NCBI GenBank assembly: GCA_902800525.1
Contig: CADCEV010000019.1
Coordinates: forward strand, 1-53,297
DNA: 53,297 bases
DNA from: an uncultured Bacteroidales bacterium
GTDB lineage: Bacteria > Bacteroidota > Bacteroidia > Bacteroidales > Paludibacteraceae
Reading direction: 5' to 3'
Part shown: piece after piece, positions 1 through 22,956 of the stretch
Position numbering within the stretch: position 1 is the stretch's first letter
Layout of the letters: each line of letters opens with the position of its first letter
Made by a program: the position numbers and the translations under genes
Notes under the pieces: generated by a model
Databases searched by the model: none
Seen by the model: the letters and a program-made list of their open reading frames with translations, nothing else
What the model was told of the DNA's origin: nothing

Positions 1-2793
1 AGCAGGGCCAGAAGGCAGGAACACCGCACCGGCGTTCTCCATTGCGGTCCAGTCGTCGCCGGAATAGACATTCGTTGTAAAGTTGTCCGGATCAGGGGTA
101 AAGGCCAGGCCGCTCCAATCGTTCGGAAGGAAGATATAGCCGCTCTTGTCGTTTACGGTAGCCCTACCCTTGGTATTATTTTCAATCAGATAATTCCATT
201 CATCTTTCGTAAGTGTACGCCAACCGGCACCCATGTTGGGTCCCCAATCGACAAAATCTCCGATATAATCGACGGCATTATAGCTATTATTGATACCATA
301 GTAGGTAGCGGCCGTACTCCAACCGAACAGATCCACCGTACCATTCTCAGAAACGGTTCCGTTGCCGTCGATCTTGTTATTCGCTACGGCAATACTAAGG
401 TAATCCCATTGGTTAGCAGCAAAGCCCCATGTCCAGTGGGCACCGAGGTCGGTAGTCGTAGCCTGCAGGTTACCTTTTGCGAAGGAGATTTGGTCACCGC
501 CGGCATTAATAGTGAACTTACCGTTCAATGCATTGGCAGGCATTCCGCCGCCCGGGTTCAGAGCTGCAAGAGCAGCCTCAGCAGCGGTCAGCACATCATA
601 GTTGCTTACCAGCAGTTTCTGGTCAGCGGTGAGTGCGTCGTACGCAGCGCGCGCGCTTTCAATAGAATCGCGCGTAGCGAGTTTCAGCGTAACCGGCTGC
701 GGGATGTTGGCAATCTTAGCCTTCACCGCGTCTGCCTCGGCTTGGATCAATGCCGTGTAATCAGTGATAGCCTGATTCAGTTTCTGTACCGTAGCATCAT
801 CGAGGGCACCCTTGGTAGCGTCGCTCAGCGCATTGTAAGCGTCGCGTGCTGCCTGAACAGCGTTCACGCATGCGGCATCGAGCGTTACAGGAACAGGGAT
901 TGCATCAATCAGGTCTTTTACAGCCTGTGCGGAATCCAGCGGAGTAGCACCTCCTGTATGTGCCGTTACCAGACGGACAGATTGACCGGCGACGCGGTCG
1001 CCATAGTCCGGACTGAGTTCCGGAACGAACCTGACTCGGTACGCCCACTTCTCACCATACGTCGTAGACGTCCAGTAAAAAGCGTACTTACCGACAGAGT
1101 TCACACTCGTGACGAGGCGACTACCCGCCGCGGGCAAAAAGGCTACGCCATTAGCTTCGTATGCCGCCCAATCCTCGGCACTGATGGTATTGTCGCTCCA
1201 ATCACTGTGGTCCGCGTTGATAGCAGTTCCTTTATAGGAATCTGGTAATATAATAATACCATGAATGCCGGCAACCGTTGCATGTCCATACTTGCTGGCG
1301 GCATCGGTACGAGTTTCAAACAGATATCCCCATTCATCTCGCGTCAACGTACGCCAACCTTCAGCTATTGTTTCTCCCCAATCGATAAAATCGCCGGGAT
1401 GCTTACCGCTAACATTCGTGTTGTTTATGCCGTAATAGGTTGCGGAAGTACTCCAACCGAAGAGATCAACCGTTCCGTTAGCAGATACCGTTCCGCTTCC
1501 GGTGATGGCGGTATTGGCTACTGCATTGCCGATGACATCATATTGGTGAGCAGCAAATGCCCAAGTCCAGTCGCTTCCGCCATACGTAGCCTGTAAGTTA
1601 CCCTTCGAGAAGGCAATCTTGTCGCCGTCCGCATTGATCGAGAACGCGCCAGTCAGGGCTCCTTCCGGCAGCGGTGCTCCGCCGCCCGGGTTCAGGCCTG
1701 CGAGGGCAGCCTCAGCAGCTACGAGGTCATCGTAGTTGGTTACCAGCGCCTGTTGAGCTGCGTTCAGAGCGTCGTACGCAGCGCGCGCGCTTTCTATGGA
1801 ATCGCGCGTAGCGAGTTTCAGCTCTACCGGCGTCGGGATGTTGTTGATCTTAGCGATTACCGGATCAGCCACGGCTTGATCAGCAGCTTGTTTAGCATCT
1901 GCATAAGCCTGCTCAGCTGCGGTCAAAGTGCTATAATTGGTTACCAGCGCTTTATCCGCATCGCTCAGGGTTTCGTACGCCTCGCGTGCTGCATCGATCT
2001 TCGCTTTGCTCTCTGGCGTACTATCTACTGTGCCGATAGCGTTAATCAATGCAATCACGTCTGCCGGCGTCTTAGGAGCAACCGTTACCAAACGTACAGA
2101 TTTCGATTTCCAACGATTGTATTCGGTAACACCATTACTTGACGCATCGAACCATAAGTAGTACGCTTTCCCTCCATCTTCATCATGCGGAGTAGAAGCC
2201 CAGTACCAGCCGTAGAGATTTACTTGATATATATCCGATCCCTCACGAACTCCGGCAGCAGGTAAGAAGACCGCACCGGCATTCTCCATAGCGATCCAAT
2301 CGGCTCCGTCGTATGTGTTTGTGGTATAATTACCGGCATTGGGTGTAAAGCTCAAACCGCTCGGGAGTTCCCACTCGTCCGGTAAGAAGATATAGCCGTT
2401 CACGCCATTCACCATCGCGTGACTGCGTTTTTTGTACGCTTCCGTTCGGGTATAAACAATATAATACCATTCTTCTTTACTCAGCGTACGCCATTCTGTG
2501 CCCATAAGTGCGCCCCAGTCAACGAAGTCTCCGGCATAATCGTCGTTCTTCCAGCTATTATTGATACCATAGTAGGTAGCAGCGGTACTCCAACCAAAGA
2601 GATCTACCGTACCATTTGCAGAAACTTTTTTGTTTCCATTGATGGCATTGTTAGCAACAGCATCGCCGATAAGACTCCATTGGTTAGGAGCAAAATCCCA
2701 CGTCCAGTTAGCACCGAGGTCGGTAGTTGTTGCCTGCAAGTTACCTTTCGCGAATTGTACCTTGTCTCCGTTTGCATTGATTGAGAATGCACC
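1..2793 (-). repeat. Three protein-level repeats (FISUMP-like modules) with FIVAR-like linkers
   Basis: Within the giant gene, three modules start with F(S/T)INA.GD, continue through FAKGNLQAT, DLFGWS, YYGIN and EWRTL-like words, and the two complete ones end with SVRLVT. They span about 2083-2793, 964-1650 and 1-522 (truncated). The linkers between them are alanine-rich helical segments with the word ALVTNY; parts of these linkers are near-identical in DNA (for example the stretches near 645 and 1777). This suggests recent internal duplication. Confidence 0.75.
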
Positions 2794-5700
2794 GGGCAGT
2801 TTTGGAATGATAGTGACTGCCAGTCCTATGTTGTGGGACGGCATCGTGAACTGCCAACTCCTATTCGGCTGCTTAGCCGGATCCGTACCCGGGTTTGTGC
2901 CGGGCGCCGGAGCAACAGGCGCTGCAACACCATACGCATAGGTTATACCGCTGATAGTGATTCCCTCCGGATTGATGGCTAAAGCTTGAGCTTTGGTGTC
3001 GTGCGTAGCTAATTCTGCTCCCGTGTAACTCGTCGCGCCGACGGTCACTATCGATGAGCTAAGATAACTGTTACTACCGGGAAGACTAATATTAGGGGTA
3101 TTAGCGATGATATAACGAGAGGGATCATGCCCATTCGTTGCCTCTGTGATATTTCCACCATTGTGGTTATAAGTAACCTTGGTATCATCAGTTGGATTAT
3201 ACCAACCAATAATTCCGCCTGCCGAACCTCTTGTAGCATCATCAGTACCGGAGGAAGAAATACTGCCATAGTTCTGGCAATAACTAACATATCCGGCGCC
3301 ACATGAACCTGTGATTCCGCCCACATATCCTTTTCCGCTTACATTGCCGTAGTTGATACAATGATCTACGCGGTTATTATCTCCTCCGGCGCTTCGCATC
3401 CAACCTACGATACCGCCGATACGAACTGATCCGTCATACGAAGAAGAAACCGTAGCATAGTTAGCGCAATACTGTACGGTACCGCCGTTTAACTGTCCCA
3501 CGATAGCACCGACATTGCGGAAAGTACTGGAAACAGTACCGCCGGCAACGACTACGTTCTTAACTACTGCCGAAGCATCGTTCACGCAACCAAACAAGCC
3601 TAACGGATTTTCACCGCTGGTGATGGAGAGGTTGATATTAGTGAACACAAAGCCGTTTCCGTCGTAAATACCCTTGAACGGCTTGCTCTCGGAATTACCC
3701 ATAACGGTAGTGATGCCGTCCAAGTTTGCCATCTGGCGGCAATTAGGCGCAGCCTGCGTTCCATCGTTCACTTTTGCTGCCACCGCATTCCAGTTAGCCA
3801 CGGTGTAGATCAGATACGGATCCTCCGCTGTACCGGCTCCTAACAGACCGGCCTCTTCAGCCGAAGTAATACTTTCCGCATCCTTGGATGCAGGCGGAGT
3901 CAACACAACGGTTTGTCCGTCAGCAATATGATACCTGCCATTGATCGGCAAAACGGCATCACCGTTAGCGGTTACTGCCCAACCATCGGGTACATTGCAT
4001 ACTGCGTATTTAACGGTCGGCAGTACTACAGGATCCGGAATGAGTGCTGTCCAAGCAGCCTCAGCATCGGTGAGTTTCTGTATATCCGCATCATCGATAA
4101 GGCTGGCAGCCTCGCCCAGAGCCGTAACGGCTGCACGGGCAGCCTCGATCGCGTTGCCGCAAATTCCCACGAACGTTACCGGATTCGGGATCGCATTGAT
4201 GAGGTCTCTTGCTGCTATGGCGTCTGCGATTACTGAAGCAGGCGCTACGGTGCAGGTAATTGTGATCGCATTACCGGCAACCATACAATCAATAAGAACT
4301 GATTCGGAGTTGCCTGTCCAAGCAGCAGATGTTCCCAGGTTAGTACCTGTAGGCCAACCGGCACTTGTAGATGCGCCTTCGCTAATATTCATAATATTGA
4401 CATCTGTTTCGATGGTAATATTGGTAAATTTCCCAAGCGATGTTGAGAATTCGAAGGAACCATCCATTGCCAGCATGTCGTCAGCGGTCATACTTCCGTT
4501 TGACAGAGCCAAATTCACTCCCTCCTTCGTAACTCCGGTAGATGTGAATTCACTTTTGTAGATAACCACTACTGTCGGTGCACCACCCGGGATAGCCGCG
4601 AAGGCAGCCTCAGCAGCCTCAAGAATAGCGATGTTGGTTACCAGCGCTTTCTGCTCAGCCGTCAGCGCGTCGAATGCCGTGCGCGCGTCCTGTACCTTAG
4701 TATATACAGAGAGTTTAAGGTCACTTTCCTGTACCGGATTCGGAAGCGCAGCGATCAAGTCTTTCACTGCATCAGCCGCTGCTTGGTCTGCCGCAGTCTT
4801 AGCATCTGCATAAGCCGTTTCCGCATCGGTCAATGTGCTGTAGTTCGTTACCAGCGCTTTGTCTGCGGCGCTCAATCCGTCGTATGCCGCACGGGCAGCA
4901 TCGATCTTCGCCTTGCTCTCTGCGGTATATTCTACCTCGCCGATAGCACTAATCAGAGCTATCACATCAGCCGGAGTCAGATTAGCAGACAGATATCCGC
5001 CTGCGCCGACATAAGCTTTGTCGACGCCTGTTGCTTCACTATCATAATTAGGAAGATTAGTACAACCATAGAACATAGCGTATCCGTCTGTAACAGCAGA
5101 AGTATTCCAATCGTCGCCTACGTAGATGGTAGTCAAATTAGAGCATCCGTTGAACATCCCCTTCATATCCGTCACTTTCGCCGTATTGAACGAACTTAGA
5201 TCAAGAGAAGTCAGAGCCTGACAGTCATAGAACATATAACGCATACTCTCAACGTTCGCCGTTGCCAAGTTTTCAATACCATTGATGGTAGTCAAAGCCT
5301 TGAAAACATAGAAGAGATTATAGAATGACGTCAGCGTATGATTCTGACACGACTCATCAATAGTAAGGGTCGTGATAAACTTACGATCACTATATTGAAT
5401 AGCGTTTCCGTCATACACAGGATTGCTTCCTGCCAAACCCCATTTCAAGGTACCTGCTGTGCCATCCACCTCCATGTAGAGTTGGTTGGTCGGAATAGCC
5501 GAGATGATTGCTTCCTTCGTAGCCCAGTTGTCAGCCGCCTTGTAGGTAGCTACTGATGCCGCCGGTACATAGATATGTTCGAGTTTGTCACAATCGAAGA
5601 ACGCATTATTCCCCAAAGTAGGAGGAGTTGTCGCCTCACAGGTAATAGTAGCCAAATTTTCGCAATTACGGAAAAACCAAGCTCCAATACTTTCAACGCT

Positions 5701-6462
5701 AGCAGGAATAGTGACGTCAGTCAACATGCTACAATTCTTGAACGCAGACTCTCCAATGGTCTGAACGCTGCTGCCAATCGTCAGAGAACTCATCTGGTCG
5801 CAAGTATTGAAGGCAGAATTTCCAATGCTGGTTACGCTGTTCGGAATGATCACGGAAGTCAAGCTTTCGCAACTGCCAAACGCAGACTCTCCAATGGTCT
5901 GAACTTTGTTACCAATCGTTAAAGAGGTCATAGCCCCACATTCATCGAAAGCATTTGCTTCTATGTTTGTAACATCGTTACCAATAACAACAGAAAGCAA
6001 GGCAGTGCATTCGTCGAACGCAGACTCTCCAATGGTCGTCACTCCGTCGCTGATGATCAGATGCTTTATCTCTGTGTTTTGATAATAAGCCTCTGTTCCC
6101 GGATTGGAGTTCACCGTCAGGGTCTTGGTGGCATCATCCCATGTGTCACCAGCAAGAACCCAAGACGGAGCAGACGAACCGCCGCTGATAGCCAGCTGGA
6201 GCGTACTCCCTTTCTGGATGTTGTAGTCCGCGAGCGCGTGATCATCCTCCATTAAGGTTGAATTGAAATAGAGCGTCTGGTTCGCAACAGGGATACTCGT
6301 CTTATCTTCAATCTTGTCCTTAACGTTTGCGATATCATCGCTTGGCTCAACCTCAATTGCGAGCAGATCTTGTTCGGGCACGTCGATATAAATCTGCATC
6401 GCCCAACTCATCCCTACGCTTGCTACTATAGCAAGAAGTAGTATATAAAATCTCTTTATCAT
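1..6462 (-). CDS. Giant secreted modular protein with N-terminal ubiquitin-like domain (C-terminus beyond window)
   Basis: The frame is open from ATG at 6462 to base 1: 2154 codons with no stop, checked over most of its length. Residues 1-21 are a signal peptide ending in SWA. Residues 22-93 are ubiquitin-like (starts MQIYI, contains IEVEPSD and DYNIQK, then GG at 94-95). Next come BspA-type leucine-rich repeats (about 134-300, repeated GESAF and SLTIG words), a DUF285-like segment (about 370-475, MFYDC/MFNGC), helical FIVAR-like segments (about 500-630 and others), a GLUG-like beta-helix region (about 870-1120), and three ~230-residue FISUMP-like modules starting near 1223, 1604 and 1981, the last cut by the window. 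It starts 8 bp after the upstream secreted gene, so the two probably form an operon. A surface-exposed or released adhesin-like protein is likely; the ubiquitin-like domain has no assigned role. Confidence 0.88.
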   Translation of the reverse strand, partial: MIKRFYILLLAIVASVGMSWAMQIYIDVPEQDLLAIEVEPSDDIANVKDKIEDKTSIPVANQTLYFNSTLMEDDHALADYNIQKGSTLQLAISGGSSAPSWVLAGDTWDDATKTLTVNSNPGTEAYYQNTEIKHLIISDGVTTIGESAFDECTALLSVVIGNDVTNIEANAFDECGAMTSLTIGNKVQTIGESAFGSCESLTSVIIPNSVTSIGNSAFNTCDQMSSLTIGSSVQTIGESAFKNCSMLTDVTIPASVESIGAWFFRNCENLATITCEATTPPTLGNNAFFDCDKLEHIYVPAASVATYKAADNWATKEAIISAIPTNQLYMEVDGTAGTLKWGLAGSNPVYDGNAIQYSDRKFITTLTIDESCQNHTLTSFYNLFYVFKALTTINGIENLATANVESMRYMFYDCQALTSLDLSSFNTAKVTDMKGMFNGCSNLTTIYVGDDWNTSAVTDGYAMFYGCTNLPNYDSEATGVDKAYVGAGGYLSANLTPADVIALISAIGEVEYTAESKAKIDAARAAYDGLSAADKALVTNYSTLTDAETAYADAKTAADQAAADAVKDLIAALPNPVQESDLKLSVYTKVQDARTAFDALTAEQKALVTNIAILEAAEAAFAAIPGGAPTVVVIYKSEFTSTGVTKEGVNLALSNGSMTADDMLAMDGSFEFSTSLGKFTNITIETDVNIMNISEGASTSAGWPTGTNLGTSAAWTGNSESVLIDCMVAGNAITITCTVAPASVIADAIAARDLINAIPNPVTFVGICGNAIEAARAAVTALGEAASLIDDADIQKLTDAEAAWTALIPDPVVLPTVKYAVCNVPDGWAVTANGDAVLPINGRYHIADGQTVVLTPPASKDAESITSAEEAGLLGAGTAEDPYLIYTVANWNAVAAKVNDGTQAAPNCRQMANLDGITTVMGNSESKPFKGIYDGNGFVFTNINLSITSGENPLGLFGCVNDASAVVKNVVVAGGTVSSTFRNVGAIVGQLNGGTVQYCANYATVSSSYDGSVRIGGIVGWMRSAGGDNNRVDHCINYGNVSGKGYVGGITGSCGAGYVSYCQNYGSISSSGTDDATRGSAGGIIGWYNPTDDTKVTYNHNGGNITEATNGHDPSRYIIANTPNISLPGSNSYLSSSIVTVGATSYTGAELATHDTKAQALAINPEGITISGITYAYGVAAPVAPAPGTNPGTDPAKQPNRSWQFTMPSHNIGLAVTIIPKLPGAFSINANGDKVQFAKGNLQATTTDLGANWTWDFAPNQWSLIGDAVANNAINGNKKVSANGTVDLFGWSTAATYYGINNSWKNDDYAGDFVDWGALMGTEWRTLSKEEWYYIVYTRTEAYKKRSHAMVNGVNGYIFLPDEWELPSGLSFTPNAGNYTTNTYDGADWIAMENAGAVFLPAAGVREGSDIYQVNLYGWYWASTPHDEDGGKAYYLWFDASSNGVTEYNRWKSKSVRLVTVAPKTPADVIALINAIGTVDSTPESKAKIDAAREAYETLSDADKALVTNYSTLTAAEQAYADAKQAADQAVADPVIAKINNIPTPVELKLATRDSIESARAAYDALNAAQQALVTNYDDLVAAEAALAGLNPGGGAPLPEGALTGAFSINADGDKIAFSKGNLQATYGGSDWTWAFAAHQYDVIGNAVANTAITGSGTVSANGTVDLFGWSTSATYYGINNTNVSGKHPGDFIDWGETIAEGWRTLTRDEWGYLFETRTDAASKYGHATVAGIHGIIILPDSYKGTAINADHSDWSDNTISAEDWAAYEANGVAFLPAAGSRLVTSVNSVGKYAFYWTSTTYGEKWAYRVRFVPELSPDYGDRVAGQSVRLVTAHTGGATPLDSAQAVKDLIDAIPVPVTLDAACVNAVQAARDAYNALSDATKGALDDATVQKLNQAITDYTALIQAEADAVKAKIANIPQPVTLKLATRDSIESARAAYDALTADQKLLVSNYDVLTAAEAALAALNPGGGMPANALNGKFTINAGGDQISFAKGNLQATTTDLGAHWTWGFAANQWDYLSIAVANNKIDGNGTVSENGTVDLFGWSTAATYYGINNSYNAVDYIGDFVDWGPNMGAGWRTLTKDEWNYLIENNTKGRATVNDKSGYIFLPNDWSGLAFTPDPDNFTTNVYSGDDWTAMENAGAVFLPSGPA

Positions 6463-6470
6463 AGTATATA

Positions 6471-8312
6471 TCATTTAGCAGTTTGAAGAATATACTCGTT
6501 CTCAGCGCCTTCCTTGCGGATAAGTGTGAACTTGCCTACTTGTTTCTTGGGCGCGCCCGAAGGTTCGTTCTCCGTGTAGATCGCCTGGAGTTTGATACCC
6601 TCGCTCAGCGGGCCTTCTTTTACCTCCCATCGTACGAAGGTAAAGCCCTCTACCTCCGGAGCCTCCGGACGGTTGAAAGCAGCCGTCTCTTGAGCAGCCT
6701 TATTGCCAAGGCTGTCCAGATAAGAGACATTCGTACTTGGGTTGATTGTCCAATTAGCGACATAGTTCTTATCCCCCGTAGATCCTTTCGCAATCTCCAC
6801 AACGAGTTGCGGTACATCGCCGTTCGAGCCGGTCCAACCGATGAAGGTATAACCCAGACGAGTCGGAGCGGTCAGTTGGAAGTTTTCCGATATCTGGCTA
6901 TAAGTAGCCGGGTTGGTTCCTTTACCCTCATTATAATCGTAGGTGATGTTATAAAGCGGTACCCAATTGGCGGTATAAGATTTATTACCCGTCGAACCCT
7001 TGGCAATCGTGACAGTCGTCTGCGGAGTTGTTCCGTTCGAGCCTGTCCAGCCGAGGAAAACATAGCCCGTACGGGTCGGGTTATTCAGGGTGATGGCATT
7101 GGTTGTTACATCGTAGCTTGTCGGGTTGCCGGTTACCGTACCGTCCTTGAGGTCGTAGCTGATGGTATAGTTTTCCAGTGTCCAGTTAGCCGTATAGGTC
7201 TTATTTCCCGTCGAACCCTTCGCAATCTGCACGGTCGTTTGCGGCGTGTTGCCGTTCGAGCCCGTCCAACCCTTGAAGGTATAACCTGTACGTGTCGGGG
7301 TTTTGAGGGTGAAGGTAGCCGTCTCGATGTTATAACTCGTCGGGTTACCGCTTACGCTACCGTCATTCAACGTATAGCTGATGGTATAGTTTTCCGGTGT
7401 CCAGTTAGCCGTATAGGTCTTATTTCCCGTCGAACCCTTGGCTATCGATACAGAGGTCTGCGGCGTGCTGCCGTTAGAGCCCGTCCAACCCTTGAAGGTA
7501 TAACCTGTACGTGTCGGGTTTTTGAGGGTGAAGGTAGCCGTCTCTACGTTATAACTCGTCGGGTTGCCGCTTACGCTACCGCTGTTTAGCGTATAGCCGA
7601 TGGTGTAGTTCACTATCGTCCACTGTGCGTAGAGCGTTGGACTCCAAAGATCAGTGGTATAAGTAGCACCCTTGGCATAACTTTGTCCTGAACCATCCTG
7701 TTTGGTATTCCAGTTGTTGAACGTATAACCCGTACGTGTCGGCGTAGTGCTACTCAGCGTCAGGTTAATACCCTGTACCTTTTTCTGATCTGCCGGCGCA
7801 CCACTACCGCCATTGGCATTGTACTTAACAGTGTACGGATCAGCAACCGATACCTTTTTTACGACGGAAACTCCGTCACTCGAGTACGTTAATCCGACAC
7901 TATTACCACTTCCTGCTACATTGAGGGCGTAGATGCGCACATAGTACGTGCCCGCCCCAACACCTATATTGTACAGATCGATGGTACGGTCGAAACCGTG
8001 TACCGTACCATACAACTCGCCGACGGAGGAACCCCAGTCGCCCTTTAGATCCGGACGATCGAGATTAGCGTACGTACCGTTGATACCTTTTACGGCCTTC
8101 GCAAGATCCGTTTCAGTCTCACTTGAAAAAAGATACACGTGAACCTCGACGGTCGCACTGCCATTGTCGGGATCAATCGCCCACCCGTTGACAGTAATCG
8201 AACCGTGCTTGCCTGTGACGGCGTCAATCGAGCCAATCGGATTCGCAGCCCACATCGCTGTCGCGCTAAAGACTGTTAGCGCAAACCAGCTTAAGAATTT
8301 TAGTTTGTTCAT
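6471..8312 (-). CDS. Secreted Listeria-Bacteroides repeat (InlB B-repeat-like) protein
   Basis: A 613-residue protein with a signal peptide (residues 1-22, ending in MWAA). Residues 23-150 form a beta-rich domain with the phrase VNGWAIDPD, a module also seen in other bacterial surface proteins. From about 160 to 590 there are six tandem repeats of roughly 70 residues with the words TRTGYTF, GWTGSNG and YTANW, the signature of the Listeria-Bacteroides repeat (Flg_new/InlB B-repeat-like fold). These repeats usually form an extended stalk on surface proteins. It is the first gene of a two-gene operon; the giant ubiquitin-domain protein starts 8 bp after its TGA stop. It lacks the C-terminal tail shared by other secreted proteins in the window. 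No enzymatic motif is visible. Confidence 0.85.
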   Translation of the reverse strand: MNKLKFLSWFALTVFSATAMWAANPIGSIDAVTGKHGSITVNGWAIDPDNGSATVEVHVYLFSSETETDLAKAVKGINGTYANLDRPDLKGDWGSSVGELYGTVHGFDRTIDLYNIGVGAGTYYVRIYALNVAGSGNSVGLTYSSDGVSVVKKVSVADPYTVKYNANGGSGAPADQKKVQGINLTLSSTTPTRTGYTFNNWNTKQDGSGQSYAKGATYTTDLWSPTLYAQWTIVNYTIGYTLNSGSVSGNPTSYNVETATFTLKNPTRTGYTFKGWTGSNGSTPQTSVSIAKGSTGNKTYTANWTPENYTISYTLNDGSVSGNPTSYNIETATFTLKTPTRTGYTFKGWTGSNGNTPQTTVQIAKGSTGNKTYTANWTLENYTISYDLKDGTVTGNPTSYDVTTNAITLNNPTRTGYVFLGWTGSNGTTPQTTVTIAKGSTGNKSYTANWVPLYNITYDYNEGKGTNPATYSQISENFQLTAPTRLGYTFIGWTGSNGDVPQLVVEIAKGSTGDKNYVANWTINPSTNVSYLDSLGNKAAQETAAFNRPEAPEVEGFTFVRWEVKEGPLSEGIKLQAIYTENEPSGAPKKQVGKFTLIRKEGAENEYILQTAK

Positions 8313-14326: not shown

Positions 14327-14962
14327 TTATTTATTCCAGTTTGTTTCGCTGAACAGGCCGAAAAGTTCAGCATCCACTTTGTCGATAACCTTGCGGAAAT
14401 CCGCGGGGTTGTTTTCAAAATCCATTTGGTCGGACTCGATGACGAGCACCCTGCCCTCGTATTTATGGAAGATGAAATCTTCATACTTGTCGTTCAGTCC
14501 TTTGAGGTAGTCGATCTCCATCTGCTGCTCGTAGTCGCGTCCTCTTTTCTGGATCTGGGCGACGAGTGCCGGCACGGATTTACGGAGATAAATCATCATA
14601 TCCGGCATTTTCATCTGCGATTTCATGAGGTCAAAGAGCTCCATGAAGGTCTCAAAATCGCGTTGTGAGAGGTCTCCGCGCTCGTAGTTATTGCGAACGA
14701 AGACATAGACGCCCTCAAAGATGGAGCGGTCCTGCACGATGGTATGCGTAGCGCGCTGCACAGCCAGCATGTCCTTGAAGCGCTCTTTGAGGAAATACGT
14801 CTCCAGACAGAACGCCCAGCGGTTGATGTCGTGGTAATAATCCTCCAAATAGGGATTAAAACTGACCGACTCGAACCGCGGTTCCCAGCCATAATAGCGC
14901 GCTAACATCTTGGTCAGCGTGGTCTTTCCGGCTCCGATATTTCCAGCTATGGCGATATACAT
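14327..14962 (-). CDS. Deoxynucleoside kinase (dGK/dCK family), paralogue 2
   Basis: 211 residues, clearly homologous along its length to the kinase at 13528-14175: P-loop GNIGAGKTT, DRSIFEG, and QIQKRGRDYEQQ. Its ATG overlaps the TAA of the amylase gene by one base (TAATG), so it is coupled to the starch operon. The 151-bp spacer to the next kinase contains no gene; it has a short GC-rich inverted word (GGGGTCCCC followed by A-run) but no clear promoter. Two paralogues in tandem may form a heterodimer or split substrate range. Confidence 0.88.
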   Translation of the reverse strand: MYIAIAGNIGAGKTTLTKMLARYYGWEPRFESVSFNPYLEDYYHDINRWAFCLETYFLKERFKDMLAVQRATHTIVQDRSIFEGVYVFVRNNYERGDLSQRDFETFMELFDLMKSQMKMPDMMIYLRKSVPALVAQIQKRGRDYEQQMEIDYLKGLNDKYEDFIFHKYEGRVLVIESDQMDFENNPADFRKVIDKVDAELFGLFSETNWNK

Positions 14963-17364
14963 TACTTCACGCGCGTACCTTGTATATTATACACCGCTCC
15001 GTTGCGGAGGATATAGATCTGACCGTCGATGAGGAGCTTTTGGCTCTCGGTAGCCGGTTGCGCGAAGATCTCTTCCAAGCCTTGCGGATCGCGTTTCTGA
15101 ATATCCTCGAATGTCGGAGCTTGCACCGGAGTACCGGTGAATACCATCAGTTCGCCGGGTTTGAGGGTATAAGTAGCTGCAGCAGGTTTGGCGCCGTCGA
15201 GATAATCATACCACGTGCCGGCAGGCATTTGCAGCGTCTGGTCGTCCGTAGCCGAGAAATTAGCCGCAGCAAAGACGTTTGTTCCCCATTGGATGGTACG
15301 TAGCGCTACCCGTGAACCGATATTAACCGTCGGGTTCCCGGAGAAAGCCTCCGGCATCAGCTGTGTACGCAGCGTGATCACTTGTGCGCACTTGGTGAAA
15401 GCTGCCACGCGATCCTCGTTGGTGAAATAGCCTTTGTTAGCCGGATTCGGTTTGGTGCCGGTACGTCCGTTATAGTCGATAGATACATCGTATCCCAGTT
15501 CCTCGAACTGCCAGAGCATATGCGGGCCTTTGAGCAGCACATTGAATGCCACACACGCGGGCACACGCGCTACACGGGCGGACTCATTGGTTTTGAGATC
15601 GCCGGCACCGTACTCTTTCATCTTATACTGCATGCGTTCCTCGTCATGGCTCTCCGCATAGGACACATAGCCGGTTTTGTTCGCTCCGTTGAGCGCGTCC
15701 GTATTACCGCCGTCGTCCGGTTTGAGCCAACCCATAGCTACCTGGTAATAAGCCGAGCAAAGTCCGGCTCCTGTCCAACAGAGCATACCTTCATTGATCA
15801 GATCACTCTGTCCGTTCCCCCAGTGCTCCAGGATCATATAGGCGCCCGGAGAAGTAGCCTGAACGGTACGGTTATACTCCTTGAGGTTAGCCACCGCGTT
15901 ATTGGTATTACCGCATAAACCATGGCTGAGGTCGAGACGGTATCCGTCGATCTTATACTCCTCGAGCCAGTATTGGAAGACGCGTTTGAACATCTCTTTA
16001 GCCGGTTCAAAATCATGGTTCCATTCCTCTCCGTAGCCGTTATCGCCCTCAGGCGGATTGATGTTAATCCACGGGTTATAGCGCAACTCGGTCTCTGTTT
16101 TGACCGAACTGGTCCAAGGATAGAGTTTGACCATCGGGTTCGTACCGTTCGTGTGATTGAACACAAAATCAAGAATCACAGCAATGCCGCGTTTGTGACA
16201 CTCGTCCACAAAAGCTTTCAAATCCTCCGGCTTGCCATAGGTCTTATCCAGCGCGAAATAGAGCGAGGGGTTATAGCCCCAACTCTGGTTTCCGTCAAAC
16301 TCCGACACCGGCATCAGTTCGATGGCGTTGATACCTAAGTTCTGCAAATAATCCAGACGTTTCATCATCCCTTTGAACGTACGGGCCGGGGTATAATCGA
16401 AGACCCATGCCTCGTAGATAATCAGGCTGTTGCGATCCGGGCGCTTGAAGTTCAGGGTAGCGTCCGACCACATGTAAGGGGTCTTACCGGGACGAATGAC
16501 GGAGACGAACGTGCCGTCAGCGCCCTTGGTGGGGTAACTGATGAGGGTCGGATCCACCGTTTTGGGCTCGTACTGGTCATCGGGGTGCAGCACTTTCTCG
16601 GAATAGAGGTCGCATATCTGCTTCTTCACGCCATCCGCGCGCTCTACCGCGTACTGGAAACGGTATTCCTTGTTCGGGGTCAGACCGGTTAAGGTGATCC
16701 AGAAATAGTTACCATCCTTAAAGAGCTGATAATCGCCGGTCAGTTTCCAATCGGTCATATCTCCCAGGAGGAAGACGCGTTTAGCGGATTCGGTTTTGGA
16801 CGCCGCGTACGTACAGAGCGTGACGGATGTACCGTCTGCACCGTAGTAAATACCATTGGAGACCCCCGCCGGACGGGCTTTCGAAACAGGAGCTACGCCT
16901 TCCACGCTCTCCCAGATATCGCCTTCGGTCTTTTCGCCCAGATAGAGCAAAATGTCGCCGGCAGAAGCTTTCCCTTCTTTCGTGCCGCCTTTTCCGTCAT
17001 GGAAGACGAACGCCAGCGCCTTGATATCGGTGGTCTCGGGCACGCCATAGAACGTATAGATATTCGGGATCGTGAGTTGCCAGAGGTTATCGCCGACCGA
17101 AGTCAGTTCCGGCTGCGTTGCGCCGCGCCAGGTGCCGATAACATTCTTCCAATCGCCCGTGTTTTGGGAGGCGGAAGTGATCAGACCCGTATGGGCAAAG
17201 CACTTCGTTGCACCCACCATACCACCATTGCCTTTGGTAGCATCAAACGTGATAACCACCTCGCCGGTATAGCCCACGGGAATGGGGTTCGGCGTCGGGA
17301 GTACTTGCGCGTACGCGTATAGCGCGCAAATAAATAAGGAGACTAAAACAGATAATCTTTTCAT
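14962..17364 (-). CDS. Secreted GH13 alpha-amylase family enzyme with N-terminal beta domains and shared tail
   Basis: 800 residues. Signal peptide 1-19; two beta-sandwich domains (about 25-150 and 165-260, the second resembling an N-terminal glucan-binding domain, E-set type); GH13 barrel about 310-660. Catalytic residues visible: nucleophile Asp478 in GYRLDLSHG, acid Glu513 in MILEHWG, third Asp574 in AESHDEE. The last ~25 residues (LLIDGQIYILRNG, then YNIQGTRVK) are the tail shared with six other secreted proteins here. Its ATG overlaps the upstream gene stop by four bases. Its GH13 type differs from its three neighbours and looks closer to branching or pullulanase-like members; exact specificity is unclear. 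Confidence 0.88.
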   Translation of the reverse strand: MKRLSVLVSLFICALYAYAQVLPTPNPIPVGYTGEVVITFDATKGNGGMVGATKCFAHTGLITSASQNTGDWKNVIGTWRGATQPELTSVGDNLWQLTIPNIYTFYGVPETTDIKALAFVFHDGKGGTKEGKASAGDILLYLGEKTEGDIWESVEGVAPVSKARPAGVSNGIYYGADGTSVTLCTYAASKTESAKRVFLLGDMTDWKLTGDYQLFKDGNYFWITLTGLTPNKEYRFQYAVERADGVKKQICDLYSEKVLHPDDQYEPKTVDPTLISYPTKGADGTFVSVIRPGKTPYMWSDATLNFKRPDRNSLIIYEAWVFDYTPARTFKGMMKRLDYLQNLGINAIELMPVSEFDGNQSWGYNPSLYFALDKTYGKPEDLKAFVDECHKRGIAVILDFVFNHTNGTNPMVKLYPWTSSVKTETELRYNPWININPPEGDNGYGEEWNHDFEPAKEMFKRVFQYWLEEYKIDGYRLDLSHGLCGNTNNAVANLKEYNRTVQATSPGAYMILEHWGNGQSDLINEGMLCWTGAGLCSAYYQVAMGWLKPDDGGNTDALNGANKTGYVSYAESHDEERMQYKMKEYGAGDLKTNESARVARVPACVAFNVLLKGPHMLWQFEELGYDVSIDYNGRTGTKPNPANKGYFTNEDRVAAFTKCAQVITLRTQLMPEAFSGNPTVNIGSRVALRTIQWGTNVFAAANFSATDDQTLQMPAGTWYDYLDGAKPAAATYTLKPGELMVFTGTPVQAPTFEDIQKRDPQGLEEIFAQPATESQKLLIDGQIYILRNGAVYNIQGTRVK

Positions 17365-20123
17365 AATACTTTCTTTCCTGTAATATCATATGTACTGCCA
17401 TCCACGCGGATGAACAGTTTGCCGTTCTCGATGAACTTCTCCGCTTTCTGTTGCGGCATGGGCAGCTCTTCTACGGCCGTGGGCAGCGGAGTGGTCCTAT
17501 TCACCCAGATCTGGTAGCTGGCATCCTTACCCATACCGCAGTCGTTGGTCTCGTAATAGCTTGCCATCAGCTTGTAACCGTATCCCGAGAAATCCTGATG
17601 CGCTTTGTCGCCCAGACAGAGGATCAGATAACCGTCCTTGCCTACTACCGTAGCCTGATAACCCGTGGCGTTGGCGGATTCGTCTCTCACCTCGCTCTCC
17701 GAATGAACGCCGGCTAACTTACGCGCCTCGATCATCGGTTTGATAAACTCTTTGTATTTATACCAGTGCGGGTAGAAGATACAGGGTACACCCGGCATAG
17801 AGAGCAGGAACGCGTTCGATTGCAGGAGTCGGCATTTCATGCCTTCCGTCATCGAGTTACCTCTGCCGCCGAACTCATTCTCGTTGTCCGGACGGAGGAA
17901 CCAGTCGTGGCTCTCCATGAACGTCACAGCGTGACGGCCGTCACCGCGGCTCATCATACAATCCCCGCGTTTGCTGCTGTAATCCCAGCCCGCAATCGAG
18001 TTGAACACATGCCATTTGAGGTCAAAATCCAAGCCCATGAGGTTGTAGTTCGCCCCGGCGATACGGTTCTGGATCTCGTCTGTGCCGCTATAGCACTCCA
18101 TGAAGGCAATATACGGACCGGAAGCCTTGTTGTAGTTGTCGTGATGCCAGTTATTGAAACCGTCACCCTTGTCATAACGCCATCCGTCGTAACCGATCAC
18201 GTTCTTCATCCATTTGAGATACGCCTTGAACATCTCCTGCACTTTGGGCAGGTCGTGCGACCAGTCGCGCGCACCGTCCCAGTTCTCGCCGTCGTCATAA
18301 CTACCCGTAGCCTTGCCGAAGCATTCTGCCGCATCGGGGTTGAGGTTCACCTCGTCGTTCTTGCATATATACGATGCGTCCGGATGGAACTTACCGTACT
18401 CGCCGAAGTCAAACTCCGGGAAATCACACCAGCTCGACCAGCCTGTGCAATGGTTGATCACAATGTCCGCAATCACCTTGGCACCCGCTTTATGGAAAGC
18501 CTTGATCAGTGCATCCAGTTCCGCACTGCTTCCCCAGTTGGAACTCTGGTTGCTGTAGTTCTTCGGGTGATAACCCATTCCGTCACCTTCTGCAGAAGGC
18601 GGCAACCAGATCAGGTCGAAATAGCGGCCGATTTCTTCAGCCTGCGGCGTCAGCGTCTTCCATTTGGTGTCGCCATACTCGCTCACGCCCGGAGCCGTGC
18701 TGTTGTACGACTCGTTATAGAACGCCTGCATCATCACGTCCGTGCATTGTTCGCGCACGGCGGTGGTGTAAGTGCCTTGTTTGGAGACGTAGATCTCGTC
18801 GTTCTCGTAGATGAACTTGATATAGAAATCGTATTTGCCGTCTTCCTCAACGAGGTAATGTTTATCGGCTCCTTCGCCCTGAATCGGGAAAGTGAAACTG
18901 GTGGCAGCGAACTGCTCCATCACCCAAGCTGCTTTCGCACAGTTGTCATAGATCTGAATCTTCTGTCCTTTCTTCAACTCCACATTGCGCAGCATGTATT
19001 CCAACCATTCGGATTGGAGCACATTCTTCTTGCCGGGCACGAACTTGCCATCTACCAGCAGGCCGTAGCTCTCGCATTTCTTCTCCACCGGCAACCAAGT
19101 ACCGTCATCCCACCCCTTGATGGTCCAAACCATGCTGGAATAATTGATCTTATCCTTGGTCTCGCCCCAAACCAGCACGTCTTCGCCTTTCTGCTCCCAG
19201 GTCGGAGCGGTTGTTTTAGGGCTGAAACGGATGAAAGCAATCGAGTCCGCTTGCGGGTTGATGGTCACTTGCAGGGTGTCGTTGCCCTCGCTTACCGGCG
19301 CAAAGAAATCCGTCCATTGCGCCTCGATCTTGTCGCCCCAAAGCCATGCGGCGAACTTGGCATCCGCCACGAGCCATTCCTCGCTAGGCACTAACTTCAT
19401 CACACTCTTATCCACCGGCTTTACATAGAAATTGCCGATCAACTTAAAGAGCGACTTGGTATAAATGACTTTCACCGGACCAGCCTCAGCCAGGGTAAAG
19501 CAGATATTCTTGTCGCTTCCCTCTACCAAACCGTCCGCCACTTCCGTCAGCGCGTCATAACCTTTCGCGGTTGCCCATTTGCCGTTCACCGTCACTTTCA
19601 TCACGTAGTCTCCGGCAGGAAGATTCAGCACGAACGTATCTTTATTCGAAACGATCGCATCGGAAGTCCACGCTTTTCCGGCATCCAGACCTGCCGCCGT
19701 CACCAAAGCGTCATTTCCCGTGATATAGAATTTCGCTTCGGGATCGGTATTGCCGTAAGGCTCGCCTGCTCCACAATTAGAACCCTCGCCGATATACAAC
19801 CGGTCTTCTCCATACTTGAGCTGGATGTAGAAATCGTAGCAGCCTGTTACGGTAGCGTTATAGTGGTCGCCGTCAAGGGTGAAACCTTTCACCGAATAAG
19901 AATTCAGCGTCACCGCCCAAGCCGCACCGTTATCCTTGTCGAACAGTTGCAATTTGTCGCCCGCTGCTACCGGAACATGCGCCAGATATTGGGTAAAACC
20001 CTCATTCTCGCCGGCTGCTTCACCTGCGTAATAGGTATTTCCGTTCACTAAAATACCGTAACTCGCAGCACTCAGGCTCAGGCTTACGAATACAGCCGAG
20101 AGGATAGATAGTATCTTTTTCAT
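17361..20123 (-). CDS. Secreted multi-domain GH13 alpha-amylase with two copies of the ~100-residue module
   Basis: About 920 residues. Signal peptide about 1-20; ~100-residue module (YGILVNG ... YDFYIQLKY) at about 22-115; a beta domain about 120-230; another beta region to 340; a second divergent copy of the module at about 352-450; GH13 barrel about 460-840. Catalytic residues near Asp651 (GWRYDKGDG), Glu676 (AFMECYSG) and Asp740 (MESHDWF). The start at 20123 (MKKILSIL) gives a proper signal peptide. C-terminal tail: FIENGKLFIRVDG, YDITGKKVL. It probably digests starch at the cell surface or outside. Middle of the four-enzyme operon. Confidence 0.88.
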   Translation of the reverse strand: MKKILSILSAVFVSLSLSAASYGILVNGNTYYAGEAAGENEGFTQYLAHVPVAAGDKLQLFDKDNGAAWAVTLNSYSVKGFTLDGDHYNATVTGCYDFYIQLKYGEDRLYIGEGSNCGAGEPYGNTDPEAKFYITGNDALVTAAGLDAGKAWTSDAIVSNKDTFVLNLPAGDYVMKVTVNGKWATAKGYDALTEVADGLVEGSDKNICFTLAEAGPVKVIYTKSLFKLIGNFYVKPVDKSVMKLVPSEEWLVADAKFAAWLWGDKIEAQWTDFFAPVSEGNDTLQVTINPQADSIAFIRFSPKTTAPTWEQKGEDVLVWGETKDKINYSSMVWTIKGWDDGTWLPVEKKCESYGLLVDGKFVPGKKNVLQSEWLEYMLRNVELKKGQKIQIYDNCAKAAWVMEQFAATSFTFPIQGEGADKHYLVEEDGKYDFYIKFIYENDEIYVSKQGTYTTAVREQCTDVMMQAFYNESYNSTAPGVSEYGDTKWKTLTPQAEEIGRYFDLIWLPPSAEGDGMGYHPKNYSNQSSNWGSSAELDALIKAFHKAGAKVIADIVINHCTGWSSWCDFPEFDFGEYGKFHPDASYICKNDEVNLNPDAAECFGKATGSYDDGENWDGARDWSHDLPKVQEMFKAYLKWMKNVIGYDGWRYDKGDGFNNWHHDNYNKASGPYIAFMECYSGTDEIQNRIAGANYNLMGLDFDLKWHVFNSIAGWDYSSKRGDCMMSRGDGRHAVTFMESHDWFLRPDNENEFGGRGNSMTEGMKCRLLQSNAFLLSMPGVPCIFYPHWYKYKEFIKPMIEARKLAGVHSESEVRDESANATGYQATVVGKDGYLILCLGDKAHQDFSGYGYKLMASYYETNDCGMGKDASYQIWVNRTTPLPTAVEELPMPQQKAEKFIENGKLFIRVDGSTYDITGKKVL

Positions 20124-20155
20124 AGTTGAATGGATTATCAATTATTACTTGTCAA

Positions 20156-21079
20156 TTATAGTTCGCGGCCTGTTGCATCAAACATTTTGTCGCCGCGAAC
20201 GATACGCAGTTGACCGTCCACCATCACTTTGTGCGCTTTCTCGCTTACTTCCGTATTATTGATTGCTTGAAGTGGCTGCGGGTCTGCCAATTTCTTACCG
20301 GGCATCGGCTCCGTGGACACCTCTAATGTACCATCACCGTTGTCATAAAGGTAAAGGGTATAGGTGCCAGCACCGATATGGAATTTCTCTCCGCCTGTCT
20401 TCAACACGGTAGCATGCGTCACGCCATCTGTATAACTAGCCGTCATGTACTGTTCACCCGGGTAACCGTCCACCTGGTAGAGAATGAAGATATAAGCGTT
20501 CTCTGACACTTCCAATTCCGCCATACCGTGATCAAAAAGGGTTGATTCTGAAGGTTCTACGTCCTGATTATCAATATATCCCTTATAGTAATAACGGGGA
20601 TTACCTGTTACGCCACCTTGGCTTCCTCCTTGACCACCGGGGTTATCACCACCGCCTTGACCACCAGGATTCTCTCCGCCGCCTTGGCCGCCGCAATCTT
20701 TGCCTAATTCCACATAGATCAAGTCGCCTTTTTCCATGCTCAGTTTGATGTAGAAATCATACGAACCGGCTACTTTACAAGTAATCATACCGGCTTCTTT
20801 GCCTCCTTCAAAATTAGCATAATCGCCATACGGGTCCAGATTGATCATCCATGTGTCACCACAACTCTGATTAATCAGTTTCACCACATCACCGGCCTGG
20901 AGTGCGACACAACTTGCTTTATACTGAACACGTCCTTCGGGATCTGCATCTCCGAATTTAGGAGCATCCACTACTTTGTTTCCGTTGATTTGCAAGCCGT
21001 AAGGGCCATCTTGGCATTCTGCCATCGCCGTCATCCACCCCATGGATAACATCATCATAAATGTAAAAATCTTTTTCAT
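20156..21079 (-). CDS. Secreted non-enzymatic partner with the shared module and a Gly-rich linker
   Basis: 307 residues. Signal peptide 1-20; one copy of the ~100-residue module found in the neighbouring amylases (YGLQINGNK ... YDFYIKLSM) at about 26-125; a Gly-Gln-Asn linker of repeated GGQGG words at about 130-155; a second beta domain about 160-255; the shared C-terminal tail (VMVDGQLRIVRGD, FDATGREL). No glycosidase motif is present. It sits between two amylase genes in the operon, so a starch-binding helper role, similar to SusE or SusF, is a reasonable inference. Confidence 0.75.
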   Translation of the reverse strand: MKKIFTFMMMLSMGWMTAMAECQDGPYGLQINGNKVVDAPKFGDADPEGRVQYKASCVALQAGDVVKLINQSCGDTWMINLDPYGDYANFEGGKEAGMITCKVAGSYDFYIKLSMEKGDLIYVELGKDCGGQGGGENPGGQGGGDNPGGQGGSQGGVTGNPRYYYKGYIDNQDVEPSESTLFDHGMAELEVSENAYIFILYQVDGYPGEQYMTASYTDGVTHATVLKTGGEKFHIGAGTYTLYLYDNGDGTLEVSTEPMPGKKLADPQPLQAINNTEVSEKAHKVMVDGQLRIVRGDKMFDATGREL

Positions 21080-21100
21080 AATATTAAATATTGGTTTGTT

Positions 21101-22918
21101 TTATTTTACGATTCTACCCATTGCGTCATACACATGCTCGCCCATGCGGATGAACAGATGTCCGTTCTCGAAGAACTTGGTACCTTGTACTTTTTCCGTT
21201 TGTACATTCTCCACGCTTTGCGGTTTGCGCTCTTCATCCTTGTCCCCGCGCGCGCTATTTACCTTATAATATACGCCGTAGTTTGTGCCCTTGACCGCCA
21301 GGGTATAGCCGCTCGGAGTGTCATTATAGCCCGAGTTTGGACCTACTAAAAGACGAATTTCACCATTTGTGCCAGTGATAGTAGCTTTGTAATAGCCGTT
21401 TCCGCAATCGTCATTCACGCTGCTCTCGCTATGCACTCCGGTTTTATAACGGGCATTGATCATCTTTTTCAGCGGCTCTTTGAATGTCACCCAATGCGGG
21501 AAGAACACCAAAGGCACACCCGGCATAGACAACAGATAAGCATAACATTGCATGATCTTATCCTTGCATACCGTCATCGAGTTGCCGGCGCCGCAGAACT
21601 CATTGTCATCGCGCTGATAAGAATCGTGACTATCCAGGAAAGTAACGGCATAACGTGCCTTGCCAGCACCCAACAAACCGGCACCTCGCAAACCGCAGTA
21701 ATTATCCGCTGCCACACCGTTATTGAAAGCCTTATATTTGGTAGCGAAATCAAACGTGAGCGTATTCCAGCCGGCATCTTTGAGATGGTTTTGCAATACA
21801 TTCACATCACCATCCCACATTTCCATCACAGAGAAATAAGCCTGTGCGGCAGAGTTATAGTCATTGATGTGGCTGTTATGGAAACCCTTGCAATAATCAT
21901 AGCGGAAACCGTCTATCTTCACATCGTTGCGCAGCCATTTGAGGTACGCCTTGAACATTGCCTGTACATCCGGATTCTTATGATCCCAGTCGCGACCGGA
22001 GTCATAGTTTGCCTCGCTACCATAACCATCATCATCCGCTCCTGTTGCCTTTCCTTTGCAACTGCCGGCCTTTTCGTCGAAATTCATTTCATCCGTCCTG
22101 CATATCCACGAAGCATCCGGCTGGAACTTACCATACGCGCCAAAATCCAGCGGCGCGAACTTACACCAACCTTCTATAGAAGCACCATGATTAATCACAA
22201 TATCGGCTACCACCTTAGCACCGTTATTATGCAACGTACCGATGAGTTCCCTAAGGCGTTTTTCGGTTCCCCAATCGCTCTCCAAATTGCTGTATTGCGT
22301 GGGGACATAACCTGTTCCGCCTGTAGCTTTGGACATTGGCGGTAGCCACACCAAATCAAACCATTGGCCAATCTCAGTAGCATTCGTGCCATTATTACCA
22401 TTGATAAAATCGACCCATTTAGTACGACCATGTCCTTTGTCGGTATAGCTATCCCAATAGAAAGCTTGCAGCATCACATCCGGGCATTGCGCCGGAGCGG
22501 AACCGGCATAACCCGGCTCGATCGGATCGCCGCCGCTTATATCCTGACCCTCGCCGCAATCAGAGCCCTTGCCGATATACAGCTCATCCGCCTCAAACTT
22601 AAGCTTGATATAAAAATCATAGCATCCCTTTACGGTTACATCGTAATGATCGCCGTTGCGCGTGAATCCCGCCTCGGAAGACGTATTGAGCGTCACCGCC
22701 CAAGCCGCCTTGTTATCTGCGTCATACAACTGAACCTTGTCCCCTTGCGCCACTTTCACATGCGCCAGATACTGCTCAAAACCCTCTCCAAACGGATCCG
22801 GACCTTGATACGAACCGGCAAAATAGATCTTGCCGTTCACCAAAATTCCATAATTGGCTGCTTGTGCCATCATCGCGCACACCGCCAACACGCATACCAA
22901 AAATCCTTTTTTCATCAT
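21101..22918 (-). CDS. Secreted GH13 alpha-amylase with one N-terminal module
   Basis: 605 residues. Signal peptide 1-20; one ~100-residue module (YGILVNGKIYFAG ... YDFYIKLKF) at about 22-118; GH13 barrel about 145-520. Catalytic Asp341 (GFRYDYCKGF), Glu366 (SVMEMWDG) and Asp432 (FLDSHDSY). The barrel closely resembles those of the flanking genes at 17361 and 22948 (shared PDVMLQAFYWDSY and VADIVINH phrases). Tail: FFENGHLFIRMGE, YDAMGRIVK. Second gene of the operon, which starts at 24420. Confidence 0.9.
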   Translation of the reverse strand: MMKKGFLVCVLAVCAMMAQAANYGILVNGKIYFAGSYQGPDPFGEGFEQYLAHVKVAQGDKVQLYDADNKAAWAVTLNTSSEAGFTRNGDHYDVTVKGCYDFYIKLKFEADELYIGKGSDCGEGQDISGGDPIEPGYAGSAPAQCPDVMLQAFYWDSYTDKGHGRTKWVDFINGNNGTNATEIGQWFDLVWLPPMSKATGGTGYVPTQYSNLESDWGTEKRLRELIGTLHNNGAKVVADIVINHGASIEGWCKFAPLDFGAYGKFQPDASWICRTDEMNFDEKAGSCKGKATGADDDGYGSEANYDSGRDWDHKNPDVQAMFKAYLKWLRNDVKIDGFRYDYCKGFHNSHINDYNSAAQAYFSVMEMWDGDVNVLQNHLKDAGWNTLTFDFATKYKAFNNGVAADNYCGLRGAGLLGAGKARYAVTFLDSHDSYQRDDNEFCGAGNSMTVCKDKIMQCYAYLLSMPGVPLVFFPHWVTFKEPLKKMINARYKTGVHSESSVNDDCGNGYYKATITGTNGEIRLLVGPNSGYNDTPSGYTLAVKGTNYGVYYKVNSARGDKDEERKPQSVENVQTEKVQGTKFFENGHLFIRMGEHVYDAMGRIVK

Positions 22919-22930
22919 ATTAGAATTTAA

Positions 22931-22956
22931 TTATCAATTGTCAATTATCAATTAAC
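22931..22956. repeat. 7-bp tandem array between amylase genes
   Basis: TTATCAATTGTCAATTATCA and following bases form 7-bp units (TCAATTG, TCAATTA). The array includes the stop codon region of the 490-residue amylase. Same class as the arrays near 29223, 35504, 40057 and 44524. Confidence 0.6.

Follow-up and report, generated by a model that had tools for sequence, protein, structure and literature searches.

What is a ubiquitin domain doing at the start of a giant protein of an uncultured Bacteroidales bacterium? The domain is encoded near one end of a contig of 53,297 nucleotides (GCA_902800525.1, CADCEV010000019.1), which was analysed over its whole length and is hereafter called the window. 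A minus-strand frame runs from 6474 to 1, comprises 2,158 codons without a stop and is still open at contig base 1; its product exceeds 2,100 residues and leaves the contig (Table 1). Because the gene ends at the contig edge, the anchor of the protein is not in view. The first-pass annotation of this DNA had placed a ubiquitin-like domain directly after a signal peptide, starting at residue 22, and this numbering is right when counted from the internal ATG at 6462: ubiquitin Met1 (position 6399) is then residue 22, GMSWA stands immediately ahead of it, and the mature part would open MQIYIDVPEQ. The body had been labelled BspA/GLUG/FISUMP-type, and of this label the first part holds: the window protein belongs with the BspA-type leucine-rich repeat proteins by its PF13306 repeats. 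GLUG was not reported by Pfam (E<=0.001), and the FISUMP label rests mainly on reading by eye because the match lies under its curated cut-off. The start of the upstream Listeria-Bacteroides repeat protein is likewise signal-peptide-like.

Table 1. Features of the ubiquitin-bearing gene and its upstream neighbour in the window
Feature	Position	Strand	Basis
Predicted signal peptide ending ...VGMSWA	6400..6474	-	Translation; 25 codons from ATG 6474 or 21 from ATG 6462
Ubiquitin domain, ubiquitin positions 1-72	6184..6399	-	PF00240, 35/72 identity, AlphaFold, Foldseek
Gly-Gly, ubiquitin positions 73-74, linker start	6178..6183	-	Translation; Gly-Gly also in L015 and L011
Putative exchangeable cassette (leader end plus ubiquitin)	6176..6424	-	blastn to L011, L015/L116
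BspA-type leucine-rich repeats (LRR_5), best stretch	5722..6093	-	PF13306, E=9.4e-48
DUF285 / PARCEL-type repeats	5053..5316	-	PF03382, E=4.2e-16; TIGR02167, E=1.7e-17
FISUMP-like segment, under curated cut-off	967..1365	-	TIGR02145, E=2.5e-4, 21.8 bits vs 41.65
613-residue protein with Listeria-Bacteroides repeats, upstream	6471..8312	-	TGA overlaps ATG at 6474 (ATGA)

Positions 1-72 of the domain align with human ubiquitin without gaps, 35 of them being identical, and PF00240 recognizes it at 58 bits (E=8.2e-16), over the curated cut-off of 25.4 (Pfam). This is the single PF00240 match of the genome (E=1.9e-17 in the genome scan), and 14 control genomes gave no match to the model. In a phmmer search of the PDB, residues 1-71 aligned with wild-type single ubiquitin chains (E=8.8e-15). 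AlphaFold modeling of ubiquitin residues 1-80 gave a mean pLDDT of 92.9 and a pTM of 0.81, with pLDDT per block of 96-99 across residues 1-70 and 61 in the last block. The best PDB match of the predicted structure in Foldseek is ubiquitin, with a TM of 0.89 on query length and 0.96 on target length, and the first 50 matches include 1ubq and entries 8hm1 and 8hm3 of BfUbb, the secreted ubiquitin of Bacteroides fragilis; in these alignments the window domain is 39% identical to BfUbb and 46% to human ubiquitin. The structure prediction that had been suggested as a check thus returned the beta-grasp ubiquitin fold, and the resemblance to eukaryotic ubiquitin is too close for an ordinary bacterial beta-grasp family. 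Alignment, family model and predicted fold all bear out a ubiquitin-family domain directly after the signal peptide of a giant, putatively secreted protein.

The face by which ubiquitin is recognized is altered in the window copy. None of the eight positions presumed to form the Ile44 patch is kept, Arg42 and Lys48 among them, and Arg72, Gly75 and Gly76 are changed too; 10 of 14 presumed core positions are unchanged. Positions 71-76 read ISGGSS and continue into the protein, with no C-terminal Gly75-Gly76. Since the Ile44 patch, Arg72 and the terminal Gly-Gly are lost, conjugation by the window copy or mimicry of host ubiquitin is unlikely to judge from its residues, and the earlier suggestion that the domain acts on host or protist ubiquitin machinery finds no backing here. 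A search for E2 enzymes (PF00179) in 14 genomes, its own included, gave no match; the controls were silent too, and there was no positive control. The window copy forms a clade with two other loci, L011 and L015. Across these three members 21 positions are fixed and unlike ubiquitin and 21 others vary; T42, Y44, N46, S47, T48 and L49 are fixed in all three, and the ubiquitin recognition face has been replaced in this clade.

How was such a gene assembled? It is a mosaic of a genus leader, a ubiquitin cassette and leucine-rich repeats. The signal-peptide DNA (6401-6474) is common to eight other genomes of the genus (L117-L124), with 91-97% identity over 67-76 bases, and in none of them does ubiquitin come next; by eye, the mature proteins that follow are of several kinds, one of which accounts for three of the eight. 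At the sequence level, the genus appears to possess a fixed leader with exchangeable secreted cassettes. The cassette of the window gene matches L011, from another family, at 93.5% over 245 bases by blastn, with flanks that are unalignable, and L015/L116 at 87.4% over 246 bases, while the repeat segment from about 6171 resembles still other genes. The Gly-Gly pair to which the first-pass annotation had drawn attention is indeed present at ubiquitin positions 73-74, but it adjoins the cassette boundary. The source of the cassette would be a bacteria-wide pool of secreted ubiquitins, itself presumably of eukaryote-type ubiquitin descent, and joined between the genus-wide leader and the leucine-rich-repeat body.

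Nor is the design a lone one. A scan of genome_contigs recovered 437 relatives. The best 80 of the 437 were analyzed; in 73 a signal-peptide-like segment ends exactly ahead of ubiquitin Met1 and in seven it is absent, according to a simple, home-made rule (a hydrophobic stretch with small residues at -1 and -3). When the window is added to the 73 loci (n=74), residue -1 is Ala in 65 and residue -3 is Ala in 43. By record title, which can err for metagenome bins, these 73 from the best 80 of 437 comprise 70 bacterial and three archaeal loci and represent 13 named NCBI phyla plus one record without a phylum. Shares among the 80 loci are no random sample because the ranking used resemblance to a single query and positions 55-64 are fixed by the pattern of the search. 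Named strains among the carriers include Lachnospira multipara, Ruminococcus albus 8, Saccharibacillus, Belliella, Pedobacter, Seonamhaeicola, Thiocapsa and others, and the record titles place several carriers in habitats other than a host. Around the window genome, PF00240 was matched by 4 of 101 relatives, by 6 of the 178 genomes in the genus and 8 of the 358 in the family, and, in samples, by 5 of 393 from the order (three over cut-off) and 4 of 296 from the phylum; its own genome is counted in each of these overlapping sets. In viral_contigs 21 loci, part of them with signal peptides, lie on contigs filed as viral; plasmid records gave matches in three, and phages gave no match. The match L013 was dropped: it scored 22.9 bits, under the cut-off, did not return in the profile scan, and its reading frame of more than 300 residues looks like a chemotaxis receptor by eye.

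These relatives also bear on whether a eukaryotic ubiquitin might have reached a bacterial bin through contamination or misassembly, a concern raised by the draft state of the genome (33 contigs). The 2,158-codon frame is continuous with bacterial leucine-rich repeats and begins with a bacterial-type signal peptide, and five further genomes of the genus contain matches. The same design is found in strains: 13 loci were chosen whose titles name a strain, and all 13 genomes have a single copy. Moreover, the complete plasmid pRUMAL01 of Ruminococcus albus 7 carries a signal peptide-ubiquitin gene. Contamination was rejected on the further genomes, the single copies and the plasmid, and its probability is negligible.

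The modules joined to ubiquitin in the wider family are diverse. Among 86 proteins including that of the window, Pfam (E<=0.001) found Autotransporter in 13 and SLH, Por_Secre_tail and IPTL-CTERM in six each, and NCBIfam (E<=0.01) found midcut-by-XrtH in eight, IPTL_CTERM in seven, Por_Secre_tail in five and LPXTG in two; these classes overlap, the figures come from the 25 commonest families among the matches listed, and many of the 86 proteins have none of the listed anchor modules. These modules are C-terminal, a placement also seen by eye in these proteins, and an N-terminal ubiquitin would therefore lie furthest from the anchor. Full-length relatives L146-L148 have no T9SS tail by Pfam and are T9SS-like by eye only; L148 has a sub-threshold match to DUF6383 (Pfam) and L009 a sub-threshold T9SS tail. 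The window's own genome has 11 matches over cut-off to TIGR04183, the T9SS tail model, which also matched 2 of 14 controls. The 86 proteins scanned come from 92 references, minus L029, the second L058 copy, L097, L099, L104 and L105; the list of 92 is itself free of duplicates (L001, L003, L005, L006, L014, L095, L096, L106-L114) and of L004, L012, L013, L052, L086 and L100-L102.

Does the wider family retain the recognition face of ubiquitin? The conservation set omits the window clade, loci with no signal-peptide-like start (L022, L031, L052, L058, L068, L070, L091), L097, L100-L102, L105-L114, L004, L007, L010, L012 and duplicates; removal of near-identical sequences reduced the remaining 79 to 74 (67 from genome_contigs, four from viral contigs and three from G genomes), of which 71 match human ubiquitin at 50 or more of 72 positions and are termed near-ubiquitin members. 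These keep up to 71 of 72 residues; L8, I44 and V70 are jointly intact in 35 and Gly75-Gly76 in two. Mean identity to human ubiquitin (n=71) is 0.743 in the Ile44 patch, 0.852 at 40 other exposed positions, from which 55-64 were kept out because the search pattern fixes them, and 0.947 in the core. Special conservation of the patch was looked for and is absent, the patch being if anything less conserved than the other exposed positions (permutation P=0.057); thus the wider family is not specially retaining this face. Third-position GC of the ubiquitin segment tracks locus GC (r=0.89, 67 ungapped domains), so the genes look resident. Across 2,211 pairs dS exceeds 2 or is undefined in 2,013, and the remaining 198 have a median dN/dS of 0.115. 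Within the window clade the ratio is much higher, 0.74 for the window against L015 (ubiquitin segment: 8 synonymous, 21 non-synonymous changes) and 3.7 for the window against L011 (1 and 14). Positive selection was considered and is not claimed because 1 versus 14 changes give P=0.16 and the L015 comparisons show none; judged by these substitutions, the ubiquitin segment of this clade may be under weak constraint or have changed its role.

A tree of 72 columns and 90 rows, with three eukaryotic ubiquitins and NEDD8 as references, groups the window with L015 and L011 (SH-aLRT 96) and nests this clade among sequences of gut Bacillota and Bacteroidales, where successive forks have modest support (84-91). 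Since 59 of 87 inner branches are drawn open and a long-branch warning applies to L017 and the window clade, the tree lends weak support. In this weakly resolved phylogeny, of the kind that the first-pass annotation had called for, the nearest rows to the window copy are other bacterial secreted ubiquitin domains (mostly gut by title) and not the few eukaryotic references.

Bacteroides fragilis, which presumably belongs to the same order as the window genome, Bacteroidales, is the source of BfUbb. One paper describes this species as one of a few bacteria with a eukaryotic-like ubiquitin and BfUbb as a secreted protein that acts on rival bacteria (PMC5705921), and a citing paper reports that sensitivity to BfUbb depends on a single residue, Tyr119, of a peptidyl-prolyl isomerase (PMC12396204). 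Both BfUbb and, by prediction, the window protein are secreted; in both the signal peptide, by sequence, ends exactly ahead of Met1, and both lack Gly-Gly at 75-76. BfUbb, however, is a free protein of 76 residues that is 63% identical to human ubiquitin and ends in Cys (PMC3352274; PMC5705921; PDB 8hm1, 8hm3), whereas the window domain has 35 of 72 residues in common with human ubiquitin and is fused to a giant repeat protein. With an open frame of more than 2,000 residues beyond ubiquitin, the design does differ from stand-alone BfUbb, as was originally proposed. WP_013483628.1 of plasmid pRUMAL01, a “ubiquitin family protein” by annotation only, has a signal-peptide-like stretch, ubiquitin and a C-terminal part as in the window, but matches human ubiquitin at 65 of 72 positions and its C-terminal part is about 150 residues long and not giant. 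BspA-type leucine-rich repeat proteins (PF13306) have the repeat body in common with the window protein, and their family definition is without a ubiquitin domain. The secreted ubiquitin extension proteins of nematodes also combine signal peptide, ubiquitin and C-terminal extension, but are eukaryotic, have a 12-residue extension that is cleaved off and act in plant cells, as described in PMC5705921. Among the papers listed by the literature searches, a scope that leaves most subscription journals outside, titles and abstract starts revealed no report of secreted-ubiquitin fusions to bacterial surface proteins across phyla, and no such fusions appear in the passages on ubiquitin of PMC4378268 and PMC3482391. 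Secreted ubiquitin in a bacterium is already known; N-terminal fusion to many secreted or surface proteins across phyla has no counterpart within that scope. The present data suggest that such fusions form a broad class, with members in bacteria both cultured and uncultured and in some archaea.

With its recognition face rebuilt, what might the window domain do? The reading favored here, and judged somewhat better than even, is that it is an exchangeable N-terminal ubiquitin-fold cassette of a secreted giant adhesin-like protein, a non-covalent binding module that is not conjugatable and whose design is akin to that of secreted BfUbb. Cleavage by signal peptidase ahead of Met1 would free a native-like N-terminus; the cassette would occupy the mature N-terminus, the end distant from any C-terminal anchor, and, if displayed at the surface, would bind non-covalently outside the cell. 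It would not be a conjugatable ubiquitin because its C-terminus runs into a linker and the surface read by enzymes and receptors is rebuilt. Its partner protein may belong to rival bacteria, as that of BfUbb does, or to a host, either protist or animal. The wider survey suggests that a fold borrowed from eukaryotes serves many unrelated bacteria and a few archaea as an extracellular contact module. A bolder reading, whose chances fall a little short of even, sees in this a widespread and hitherto unrecognized prokaryotic device: eukaryote-type ubiquitin at an exposed N-terminus, combined with various unrelated C-terminal anchors in roughly a dozen bacterial phyla and in some archaea, serving recognition or antagonism between cells. 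The window clade would then be a branch in which a new face replaces the Ile44 face while 21 positions vary, as expected for a new partner.

One special case of the binding-module proposal is that the domain targets competing Bacteroidales by binding one of their proteins and inhibiting it, either on a long surface stalk or after being shed. BfUbb, with its mature N-terminus at Met1, antagonizes B. fragilis strains (PMC5705921); PDB entry 8hm3 is titled “Complex of PPIase-BfUbb”, in keeping with the single PPIase residue reported in PMC12396204, and a patchy distribution in the genus (6 of 178 genomes) fits a competition gene. That BfUbb is free and 76 residues long while the window domain is fused to more than 2,000 residues, and that the window domain is no nearer to BfUbb (39%) than to human ubiquitin (46%) in the Foldseek alignments, make this narrower version rather unlikely. 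Comparably doubtful is a passive fold, a very stable N-terminal domain that aids export, folding or protease resistance and has no specific partner. The great variety of fused C-terminal parts and the weak constraint in the window clade would agree with such a passive role, but in the wider set the protein sequence is preserved although most synonymous sites are saturated (median dN/dS of 0.115 in 198 pairs), more than a mere fold would be expected to need; constraint also acts on eukaryotic donors, and part of this signal could therefore stem from repeated transfer. Engagement of host or protist ubiquitin enzymes, receptors or deubiquitinases is far less probable still. It could draw on the near-ubiquitin members elsewhere, which keep up to 71 of 72 residues with L8/I44/V70 intact in 35 of 71, and on the covalent complex that recombinant BfUbb forms in vitro with human E1 (PMC3352274). 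Against it stand the window copy itself, with none of eight Ile44-patch residues and none of R72, G75 and G76, the patch values of the near-ubiquitin family (0.743 versus 0.852, P=0.057), and the several carriers from non-host habitats by title. If the domain is a contact or antagonism module, ubiquitin biology would be linked to the surface interactions of bacteria living in gut, soil, freshwater and sea, and the question is open to direct tests in named strains that share the design, Ruminococcus albus 7 for example.

Several individual loci deserve separate mention. L008, in genome G360, has a signal peptide-ubiquitin frame at 1240-1779 with 59 of 72 residues identical to human ubiquitin; a separate frame (591-1217), with a T9SS-like tail by eye, begins shortly beyond the end of the ubiquitin frame, and the gene looks split. 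Signal peptide-ubiquitin genes lie on the contigs filed as viral of L094-L096, L098, L099, L103 and L104, and in L099 a signal-peptide-like stretch is followed by a complete ubiquitin with RLRGG at its end. In pRUMAL01, L153 (3923-4663) comprises a signal-peptide-like stretch and near-human ubiquitin, with a phospholipase C domain protein and a dockerin protein as neighbors. Ubiquitin-like stretches also occur in the Pseudoalteromonas plasmid records NZ_CP077771.1 and CP076682.1 and in L004 and L012, where they fall in genes with an Ig-like or tandem-95 repeat annotation or lie inside long secreted repeat proteins; the ubiquitin fold may be used away from the N-terminus too. Elsewhere in the window (14962-24420), and unrelated to the ubiquitin finding, three genes match the alpha-amylase catalytic domain.
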